Assembly (NCBI GenBank): GCA_016793535.1
Contig: JAEUHA010000083.1
Location: 1 to 54,672, forward strand
DNA: 54,672 bases
Reading direction: 5' to 3'
Origin: Opitutaceae bacterium
GTDB taxonomy: Bacteria > Verrucomicrobiota > Verrucomicrobiia > Opitutales > Opitutaceae
Position numbers and translations under genes: made by a program. Numbering within the stretch: position 1 is the first letter of the stretch; each line of letters begins with the position of its first letter. Of this stretch, positions 884-4,182 are shown piece by piece. The notes beneath the pieces are model-generated. The model was not told the DNA's origin, did no database searches, and saw only the letters and a list, made by a program, of their open reading frames with translations.

Positions 884-2044
884 ATGACATCCGCCACCCT
901 GGAAAAGACACCCGCCGCCAACACCGCGGGTTCCACCGCCAACGTCCCCGCCCCCACCGTCCCGCGCGTGGTCACGGCCAAGACCAAGACCCTGCTCGTC
1001 GGCTTCGATCTCGGCACGAACAAGTCCTGCATCCTCGCGGGTCCCGCCACGGGCACGGACATTGCCGTCAGCAAGGTGGTGCCGACCGTGGTCGGCTACG
1101 TGAAGGACGGCATCGTCGACGGCATCATCACCGGCAACGCGCGCATCATCTTCGGCGAAGACGCGCTCCGCAACATGCTCCATGTGCGGCTCGTCGCTCC
1201 CGTGGCCGAGGGAGTGATCACCGATCCGGCGGCGGCGCGTGACTTCCTGAATCACATCCGCTCGCTGGTCGACCCGGCGGCCACGGCGGAGATTCGCGCC
1301 GTGATCGGCATGCCGGCGAACGCGGGCACCCAGGCGCGCGACGACATCCGGCGCTGCGCCTTCGGCATTTTCGACCGCGTCTTGATGATCCCCGAACCCT
1401 TCCTCGCCGCGCTCGGCTATCGCGACGACGCGCGGATCGCGCAGCCGAACTATCTCGATCCGGTGGTCAACTCGCTGTTCATCGACATCGGCGGCGGCAC
1501 GAGCGACCTCTGTCTGGTCCAGGGCGTCTTCCCTTCGAGTGAGGACCAGATCAGCATCCCGTTCGCGGGCGACGCGATCGACGAACTGCTGCACGCCGAA
1601 CTGGATCGCGTTTATCCCAACAACGGACTCTCCCGGCACAAGGTGCGCGAGATCAAGGAAGCGCATGCCTACGTCGGCCCTTCGCGGAAACCGCTCGAAG
1701 TCCGGGTCATCATGGGCGGCAAGGCCCACACGATCGAACTCGGCGACACGATCGCGCGCGCCTGCAACACCCTGATCGACCGGATCTATCCGGCGCTCAC
1801 GACGCTCATCGCGCGCGCGCCGTCCGATTCCGTGCTCACGCTGCTGCAGAACGTCATCGTGACCGGTGGCGGCTCACAGATCAAAGGCATCGACACCGTG
1901 CTGCAGAAGCGGCTCGCCGATGACGGCTTCGAAGCGCCGCGCGTGAAGCTGGCCGGCCAGGACTACAAGCGCTACGTCGCCATCGGAGCCCTCAAGGCCG
2001 CCCGCGCCGCGCGGGAGAACCAGTGGCAGGTGCTGCTGGGCTGA
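884..2044 (+). CDS. MamK-like bacterial actin ATPase
   Basis: Actin/Hsp70-fold protein of 386 residues. Visible elements are the phosphate-1 loop GFDLGTNKS (40-48), the phosphate-2 loop FIDIGGGTSDLC (199-210) and the adenosine motif VIVTGGGSQIKG (324-335). Between them, VIGMPANAG (140-148) and EPFLAALGY (171-179) align with MamK-type proteins. So do DGVIT-like EGVITDP near 109, the SIPFAGDAIDELL segment and LLQNVIVTGGG. The match is closer to MamK, the magnetosome-aligning filament, than to MreB or ParM as I know these families. A 36-residue Thr/Pro/Ala-rich N-terminal extension precedes the fold. No magnetosome genes (mamA, mamB, mamE and so on) are nearby, so the filament should serve another purpose. 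It probably polymerises in the cytoplasm on ATP binding. The small protein ending at 834 may be its partner. Confidence 0.85.
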   Translation: MTSATLEKTPAANTAGSTANVPAPTVPRVVTAKTKTLLVGFDLGTNKSCILAGPATGTDIAVSKVVPTVVGYVKDGIVDGIITGNARIIFGEDALRNMLHVRLVAPVAEGVITDPAAARDFLNHIRSLVDPAATAEIRAVIGMPANAGTQARDDIRRCAFGIFDRVLMIPEPFLAALGYRDDARIAQPNYLDPVVNSLFIDIGGGTSDLCLVQGVFPSSEDQISIPFAGDAIDELLHAELDRVYPNNGLSRHKVREIKEAHAYVGPSRKPLEVRVIMGGKAHTIELGDTIARACNTLIDRIYPALTTLIARAPSDSVLTLLQNVIVTGGGSQIKGIDTVLQKRLADDGFEAPRVKLAGQDYKRYVAIGALKAARAARENQWQVLLG

Positions 2045-2183: not shown

Positions 2184-3263
2184 TCAGCTCACCGCCGGAT
2201 AGCTGCCGAGCCACTTCACGAGCGGGCAGAACGTCTTCAGTTCGCCGATTGCGGCCTTCATGTTCGGGTCTTCGTAGTGGCCGGTGACGTCGAGGAAGAA
2301 ATAGTAGTCCCACGGCCGCTTCTTGCTCGGGCGCGACTCGATCTTCGAAAGATTGATGCCGCGCTCGGCGAGCGGCATCAGCATCTTCAGCAGCGCGCCG
2401 GAGTGCGACGCGGCCTCATCGCCGAGCGAGACGAGCAGGCTCGTCACATCCTTGCCGCCCCCGACGGCACCGGAGGGCTTGCGGCCGATGACGAAGAATC
2501 GCGTGGTGTTGTCAGCCTTGTCCTGGATGTTGCGCTCGATCACCGGCACGCCGTAGTGCTCGGCCGCGAGCTCACCCGCGATCGCCGCGGTACCCGGCTC
2601 CTGCTTTGCGAGCTGCACGGCGCGTGAAGTGCTCGGCGCATCGACCAGCTGCGCGTGCGGCAGATGCCGCTGCAGCCAGTGCCGGCACTGCGCGAGCGCC
2701 TGGTCCTTGGAGTACACGCGCTCGATGTCCTCGAGCCGCGACTTGGAAATCAGCGCGTGATTAATCTCGAGGTAGATCTGCGCGACGATCTTGAGGTCGC
2801 TCTCGACGAAGCTGTCGAGCGCCTCCCGCACCGAGCCCTCGGTGGAATTCTCGATCGGAATCACGGCGTAGTCGGTCTCGCCTTTCTCCACGGCGGTGAA
2901 GATGTCGCTCACCGTGGCCATCGCGTGGTAGTCGACGCTGGCGCCAAATTTCTTGAGGGCCGCGGCGTGCGTGTTGCTCGCCTCGGGTCCCAGGTACGCG
3001 ATGACCAGCGGCTTCTCGAGCGCGATGGCCGCCGACATGATCTCGCGGTAAATGGCCTGCAGGGCCTCGTTCTTGATCGGGCCCTGGTTCTGGCCGATCA
3101 CCTTGCGCAACACCGCGTCCTCGCGCTCGGCGACGTAGATCTGCCCGCCGGCGCTGCGCTTGACCTTGCCGATCTCGGCGGCGAGCGCGAGGCGCTGGTT
3201 GAGCAGCTCGACGAGCTGCTTGTCGATCGTGTCGATCTTTTCGCGTATCGGGCCGAGTTCCAT
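2184..3263 (-). CDS. pheA: Bifunctional chorismate mutase / prephenate dehydratase
   Basis: P-protein of 359 residues that converts chorismate through prephenate to phenylpyruvate in phenylalanine synthesis. Residues 1-80 form the AroQ chorismate mutase helices (IREKIDTIDKQLVELLNQR). Residues 87-262 form prephenate dehydratase, with GPEAS, the PIENSTEGSV motif (136-145) and the TRF catalytic motif (254-256). Residues 275-355 are an ACT domain with the ESRP phenylalanine-binding motif (309-312), so feedback inhibition by phenylalanine is expected. The ATG at 3263 was chosen because the mutase domain begins there; it lies one base after the scpB stop (TGA-C-ATG). This indicates translational coupling. 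Residues upstream in the same frame are scpB read out of frame. Confidence 0.95.
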   Translation of the reverse strand: MELGPIREKIDTIDKQLVELLNQRLALAAEIGKVKRSAGGQIYVAEREDAVLRKVIGQNQGPIKNEALQAIYREIMSAAIALEKPLVIAYLGPEASNTHAAALKKFGASVDYHAMATVSDIFTAVEKGETDYAVIPIENSTEGSVREALDSFVESDLKIVAQIYLEINHALISKSRLEDIERVYSKDQALAQCRHWLQRHLPHAQLVDAPSTSRAVQLAKQEPGTAAIAGELAAEHYGVPVIERNIQDKADNTTRFFVIGRKPSGAVGGGKDVTSLLVSLGDEAASHSGALLKMLMPLAERGINLSKIESRPSKKRPWDYYFFLDVTGHYEDPNMKAAIGELKTFCPLVKWLGSYPAVS

Positions 3264-3264
3264 G

Positions 3265-4182
3265 TCAGGAAGTGCTTTCGCCCGTCGCCGGGGGCTGTGC
3301 CGTCGTGGCGCGCGGGACGTCGTCCGCCACCTCCGCGGCGAGTTCAGCGACCGGTTCCGCATTCGCGGCCTCGAGTGGAAGCTGCTCATCGGCCAGGCCC
3401 ATGTCGGTGTCGCTCGGCGGCCGGGCGTTTTCCGAAGTCTTCAACCACTCGTCGATCTGCCGGGACGAAAGGACATCCGACGCCGGCAGCTCGTCCAGCG
3501 ACTTGATCCCGACGAATTCGAGAAACTGATCCGTCGTCCCATACTGGATCGGGCGGCCCGGCGCATCGGCCCGGCCGACGATGTAGATCAGTTCGCGTTC
3601 CAGCAGCTTGTTGATGCCGGCCTCAGCGGACACCCCGCGGATCGTCTCGATCTCGCCGCGCGTGACGGGCTGGCGGTACGCGATCACCGCGAGGGTTTCG
3701 ATCGCCGACTGGCTCAGCTTCACGGGCGGCGGTTCCTGGCGCAGAATCCGGATCCAGCGGGCGAAACGTGGATGCGTGACAAGCCGGAAGCCGGCATTGC
3801 CTTCGATCAGCAGCAGGCCTTCGTCGGCCGTGCGCAGGTCCGCGGCAATCTGGTCCATCGCTTCCCGGATCTGCGTCGCGGTGACCAGCGACGGCACGTC
3901 GAAATACAGTTCGGGATCCTGCGGAAACGCCTCGGCAGGCACCTCCACGACCTCCTCCGCTGCCAGGGCGGGGATCGGCTGGCCCGCGGACTCCGCCGGC
4001 GCGGCGGCCGCATCCGGGGCCGGCGTGGACTCCGCCGCCGCCACCGGCGCCTCCTCCGCCAGGGGCAAGGCGGCCGCCTGTTCGTGAAAGCGCGTGAACG
4101 CCGCCTGGATATCCTTGATCGCGAGCGGCTGACTCGACGAAAGCAGCAACGCCTTCAGGACTTTTTTCAGGTTGAATGCCAT
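3265..4182 (-). CDS. scpB: Segregation and condensation protein B
   Basis: ScpB kleisin-associated subunit of the SMC-ScpAB condensin, which acts on chromosome organisation in the cytoplasm. The family core is visible: FNLKKVLKALLLSSSQPL at the start, then the winged helices with PPVKLSQSAIETLAVIAYRQP and the motif TRGEIETIRGVSAEAGI, and IVGRADAPGRPIQYGTT. It has 305 residues, against about 200 in most ScpB proteins. The excess is an Ala/Glu/Pro-rich insert at about residues 38-92, inside the first winged-helix domain, and an acidic Ala-rich tail after about residue 250. The ATG at 4182 is preferred over the in-frame ATG at 4320, whose extra residues look non-coding and would overlap ilvD. 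It is followed directly by pheA. scpA and smc are not in the window. Confidence 0.9.
   Translation of the reverse strand: MAFNLKKVLKALLLSSSQPLAIKDIQAAFTRFHEQAAALPLAEEAPVAAAESTPAPDAAAAPAESAGQPIPALAAEEVVEVPAEAFPQDPELYFDVPSLVTATQIREAMDQIAADLRTADEGLLLIEGNAGFRLVTHPRFARWIRILRQEPPPVKLSQSAIETLAVIAYRQPVTRGEIETIRGVSAEAGINKLLERELIYIVGRADAPGRPIQYGTTDQFLEFVGIKSLDELPASDVLSSRQIDEWLKTSENARPPSDTDMGLADEQLPLEAANAEPVAELAAEVADDVPRATTAQPPATGESTS

Follow-up and report, generated by a model that had tools for sequence, protein, structure and literature searches.

What is a gene for an actin-like protein resembling MamK doing in a stretch of DNA in which no magnetosome gene had been noticed? The window analysed here, 54,672 nucleotides long, is one whole contig of an Opitutaceae genome (6.6 Mb in 702 contigs, 86% complete). 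A sequence-only reading had taken the product of its gene at 884-2044 for a MamK-like filament protein with a cargo other than magnetosomes and with an unusual N-terminal extension. This reading of the locus has to be corrected, since the protein is almost beyond doubt BeeR and not a stray MamK. What is new here is the small protein encoded upstream, at 352-834, which accompanies BeeR almost everywhere and provides a first concrete lead to the role of the filament.

Family assignment of the actin-like protein

The ORF at 884-2044 (+ strand, ATG start, 386 aa) is intact and retains all three nucleotide-binding motifs on which the earlier reading relied, namely GFDLGTNKS (residue 40), SLFIDIGGGTSDLC (residue 197) and NVIVTGGGSQIKGI (residue 323). 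Judged by its sequence, the product belongs unmistakably to the actin superfamily, although Pfam assigned it at the superfamily level only (MreB_Mbl, E 1.4e-19; Actin, E 1.8e-9). The NCBIfam BeeR model covered the protein over its whole length (model positions 1-349) with 591.7 bits, whereas the curated equivalog cut-off of NCBI is 530 bits. The closest solved structure was the BeeR filament of Opitutus terrae (PDB 8r2n, E 7.5e-194), with 78% identity over residues 36-386. It is thus practically certain that the gene encodes a BeeR ortholog; proteins of this kind are known from earlier work, and the window adds a further genome in which one occurs.

The BeeR family was described in 2025 as related to MamK and occurring in non-magnetotactic Verrucomicrobiota (PMC11929497). 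The O. terrae protein polymerises in an ATP-dependent manner into a hollow filament of three strands, as seen by cryo-EM; O. terrae BeeR is the one family member for which this architecture has been demonstrated (PMC11929497). The tubule is structurally novel among actins, and its discoverers state that the function is not known (PMC11929497). A MamK-related actin that is not MamK, found in a non-magnetic verrucomicrobial context, matches this published family, and the earlier conclusion (MamK-like, no magnetosomes, another cargo) therefore restates a published one.

The nearest characterised relative outside BeeR is MamK (NCBIfam NF040964; PDB 5jyg and 5ljv). The term MamK-like holds insofar as MamK is the nearest classical actin, but not in the sense of an unexplained MamK. 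The MamK model gave 220.7 bits (E 2.6e-65), about half of the required 400, and MamK membership was rejected on this score; the MamK structure 5jyg was matched with E 3.7e-33. MamK and the model of a BeeR ortholog are alike in their actin fold (Z 40.7 and rmsd 1.8 across 320 residues), but MamK, unlike BeeR, is two-stranded and has no N-terminal extension, and no magnetosome context is seen around the window gene. These similarities to the closest classical family are all that speaks for a stray or ancestral protein of the magnetosome cytoskeleton kept outside a magnetosome cluster, which we regard as extremely improbable. The window protein scored below the MamK cut-off and above that of BeeR, it has both the extension and the C-terminus of BeeR, and BeeR occurs in many Opitutales genomes in changing surroundings that are not those of magnetosomes. 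Moreover, apart from MreB the genome contains no second MamK-like gene: the MamK model, run against the whole genome (86% complete), matched only the window BeeR and a true MreB encoded separately on another contig (493 bits), both below the cut-off. Zero matches were obtained with magnetochrome domains in the same 86% complete genome, in a search that had no positive control.

MreB is also a filament-forming member of the actin superfamily, but it forms a clade separate from the window protein. MreB structures in the PDB were matched with E 3.9e-12, and the MreB subfamily model gave 54.6 bits against a cut-off of 293. In the maximum-likelihood tree the window protein was nested among the BeeR rows, in a set of nine rows, all BeeR, with support of 100/99, and the AU test rejected its grouping with MreB (p 5.9e-52). 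The protein thus falls outside the MreB clade, in keeping with the sequence-only reading, and both the score and the tree argue against MreB membership. The split between BeeR and MamK was weakly resolved (52/90) in this tree, in which a single sequence from a PDB alignment represented MamK. The Pfam models of Salactin (20.5 against a cut-off of 27.1) and Volactin (18.2 against 35) scored below their thresholds as well.

The window protein and O. terrae BeeR (8r2n) share the extension and the nucleotide motifs, and most of the positions named for cross-strand contacts seem to be retained. Among the 12 contact positions named in the original paper, R157, R242, N246, T307 and L385 are identical, the changes at 153, 277 and 284 are conservative, and the two proteins differ at 149 and 310. 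At positions 252 and 380 the window protein matches 8r2n but not the residues named in the paper. A three-stranded architecture is therefore likely for the window BeeR as well, as far as sequence can indicate. Regarding the two discordant positions, Arg252 and Asn380 are given as contacts in PMC11929497, while the aligned 8r2n sequence has His252 and Gln380, so the paper may have misnumbered these residues.

The N-terminal extension (884-991, about 36 residues) also follows the family pattern. In the window BeeR about 38 residues precede the VGFDLGT core, and in orthologs 23-61 (median 36). Since a disordered N-terminal extension of 30-50 residues is the stated hallmark of BeeR (PMC11929497), the feature is not unusual, contrary to what had been supposed, and nothing supports the membrane contact that had been suggested for it. 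The low-complexity A/P/S/T composition and the model of an ortholog suggest that the extension is disordered in the window BeeR too. O. terrae BeeR without the extension still forms filaments, but these bundle, and a repellent role was proposed by the authors (PMC11929497). The first residues, MTSATLEK, resemble a motif that is frequent in Opitutaceae, T-x-L-E-K-P, and a LEKP-like motif was found with a loose pattern in 35 of 45 close orthologs. This start of the protein (884-910) is conserved in the close orthologs, whereas the remainder of the extension is not, and it may represent a short binding motif. The best lead to any cargo of BeeR comes from the upstream partner instead of from the extension.

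Association of the upstream gene with BeeR

The partner gene (352-834, + strand) encodes 160 aa and ends 49 nt before BeeR. Its likely start is the GTG at 352, which lies 23 residues before a conserved RRxC core, and most homologs start likewise. No family was found for it in Pfam, NCBIfam, PHROGs or PADLOC. The main text of PMC11929497 does not mention the gene, although the supplement may do so; we consider the partner a new lead, its priority over that supplement being not certain.

The conservation of the gene pair at 352-2044 in Verrucomicrobiota, which had been put forward as a check, was borne out: the partner lies beside BeeR in 62 of 67 distinct loci, counted after the removal of duplicates and contig edges. 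A partner HMM, built from 27 seed loci detected with BLAST, found 38 further ORFs at E <0.1 (one locus, L021, counted as two frames), and all but one of them lie directly upstream of BeeR. The next matches were unrelated ORFs with E of at least 0.26. The gap between the two genes has a median of 41 nt, and in some loci the stop and start codons overlap by 4 nt. When 23 well-spread loci were compared, the partner was the only widely kept neighbour of BeeR, and the flanks varied between families. The one exception among the HMM matches (L042:4803-5336, + strand) is a single ORF in which the N-terminal half of the partner is fused to BeeR residues 273-385; either most of BeeR was lost here through an internal deletion, or the assembly has joined two separate pieces.

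The association also holds at the level of whole genomes. Among 388 genomes of the phylum, BeeR was detected in 18, the partner profile in 19 and both in 17 (Fisher p 1.5e-26; the genera are related, so that p overstates independence). All 18 BeeR genomes belong to the order of the window genome. The genome scored as having BeeR only (G021) contains a divergent partner beside BeeR (L054). Of the two partner-only matches, the one in G336 is weak, falls within a frame of 1,514 aa and probably represents a false positive. The other, in G244, a BeeR-less genome that is 97% complete, is a partner pseudogene with three stops (L120, G244:C2:126500-129500); the genus-mates G212 and G236 have BeeR and the partner. 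In two BeeR-less genomes of one genus from the order-level sample (G130 and G118), the helical domain of the partner is retained and the C-terminal motif described below is missing. In two others (G011 and G210), BeeR and the partner are on separate contigs and the motif is retained, which shows that the motif tracks BeeR and not linkage.

Five BeeR loci have no adjacent partner (L029, L032, L034, L060 and L066), and in four of these five genomes the partner was undetected genome-wide. BeeR can thus persist without the partner, and the dependence appears asymmetric, the partner needing BeeR more than the reverse. The co-dependence of the two is well supported, and the partner is very probably tied to BeeR functionally. 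These five loci could also be taken to indicate that the upstream gene is a bystander which stays beside BeeR by ancient synteny and has no functional link to it, particularly since the wider neighbourhood (rpmA, pheA, scpB and ilvD) is also conserved within Opitutaceae. We find this unlikely, because the pair stays together across families while the other neighbours change, because co-occurrence extends to genomes in which the two genes are unlinked, and because the partner decays or loses its motif where BeeR is missing. A further genome (G013), 100% complete and of the same genus as the window genome, has neither BeeR nor the partner; the pair is thus readily lost, and BeeR is patchy even within Opitutaceae.

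Architecture of the partner and possible role of the pair

AlphaFold2 predicted for the partner a three-helix domain at residues 17-101 (400-654, + strand; helices at 17-32, 36-57 and 61-101) with pLDDT of 92-98 for most residues, no strands and a net charge of -6. It is followed by a Pro/Ala-rich linker, predicted to be flexible, and by a C-terminal helix at residues 134-145. This helix lies in an acidic amphipathic C-terminal motif (SIADFLDEMIAQES; 748-789, + strand), which has the form IADFLDEMIAQE in the window and is proposed to bind BeeR. In O. terrae, whose partner is encoded at L044:2709-3167 on the - strand, the C-terminal helix is VADLIESMLLQQ. A related acidic amphipathic motif of 12 residues was found in 62 of 64 partners, with a net charge from -1 to -6 (mean -3.3) and a mean hydrophobic moment of 0.56. 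The stricter of two patterns matched 47 of the 64 partners, against 7 of 549 neighbourhood ORFs and 0.1% of shuffled tails.

In the model of a read-through fusion (L030; partner, stop and BeeR as one chain) the motif helix reached pLDDT 87-90 between flanks below 50. Modelled alone it reached 84-86, and the confidence in the fusion model, which lends weak support to a contact with BeeR, could thus reflect the isolated helix. An alignment combining fused with single partner rows placed the C-terminal motif out of register and was left out of the modelling. When the partner model was compared with known structures by Foldseek and VIA-align, none matched with E <0.001 or Z of at least 8; the weak structural rows included FliT, MIT-like and ribosomal S20 bundles. 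The dN/dS ratio between the window and locus L002 was about 0.42 for the partner and 0.04 for BeeR, values which indicate that the partner is under purifying selection yet fast-evolving.

The whole of these observations is probably best explained by a BeeR filament paired with an upstream adaptor or regulator. According to this proposal, BeeR would be an ATP-dependent actin homolog which, judging from its relatives, assembles into stiff tubular filaments of three strands, and 352-834 and 884-2044 would form a two-gene operon, presumably co-transcribed. The partner would be a dedicated adaptor or regulator of BeeR. Its acidic amphipathic C-terminal helix would bind the side of the filament, its end or the monomer, a contact for and against which we see equal chances. 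The flexible Pro/Ala linker would join this helix to the three-helix domain, and the domain might make the contact with cargo or with regulators. The odds are likewise balanced for the broader proposal of a two-component cytoskeletal system, in which a helix-docked adaptor links the tubules to cargo and the two genes have been passed on, moved and lost as a unit throughout Opitutales. BeeR most likely organises or positions some cytoplasmic or membrane structure that the chromosome encodes; neither magnetosomes nor plasmid segregation is its probable task.

FtsA carries an amphipathic membrane helix at its C-terminus, and the partner helix, which is amphipathic and C-terminal too, could by analogy tie BeeR filaments to the membrane. 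The helix is, however, net negative in every homolog, with -1 as the highest charge, whereas helices that target membranes are typically cationic. The membrane anchor was rejected on this constant acidity and has, in our view, only a slim chance of being correct; binding of the acidic helix to a protein is more likely than binding to a membrane. The small gene next to an actin gene, together with the C-terminal helix, also recalls ParR and ParM, and the phage 'partition protein' profile PHROG 691 weakly matches the actin (E 7e-10). A segregation system in which BeeR would push DNA whose centromere is bound by the partner is very unlikely all the same, because the folded domain of the partner is predicted to be all-helical and acidic instead of the DNA-binding ribbon-helix-helix of ParR, and because the genes are chromosomal and lie beside housekeeping genes. 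The comparison with ParMR is thus one of layout only, i.e. an actin whose small neighbour ends in a helix, which in ParR docks on ParM. A phage or defence origin was also rejected, as PHROGs gave only weak superfamily matches and PADLOC none. With the adaptor or regulator as the preferred reading, a partner that is conserved with BeeR, relocates with it and decays without it turns the function of BeeR into a simple binding question.

Surroundings of the locus

Upstream of the pair the window contains the end of a ceramidase-like gene, and downstream of BeeR lie the housekeeping genes pheA-like, scpB and ilvD, all named by sequence reading. The convergent pheA-like gene (2184-3389, - strand) is a conserved neighbour within Opitutaceae only and lies outside the BeeR module. 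In locus L002 (JADZEE010000115.1) BeeR is 97% identical to the window BeeR and the downstream gene order is the same; this entry, titled Gammaproteobacteria, is almost certainly a mislabelled Opitutaceae bin, judging from these sequences.

In Opitutaceae the space separating rpmA from the partner gene frequently encodes another small protein (L012:4026-4403; some two dozen further loci, including L003, L004, L006, L008, L009, L011, L013, L014 and L017). The window contig starts downstream of its expected place. In proteins of this type the N-terminal part contains a stretch resembling a coiled coil, MPDRLDELRRQRALVQEHLAWLDREIA, and the C-terminal part a hydrophobic stretch which is probably transmembrane.
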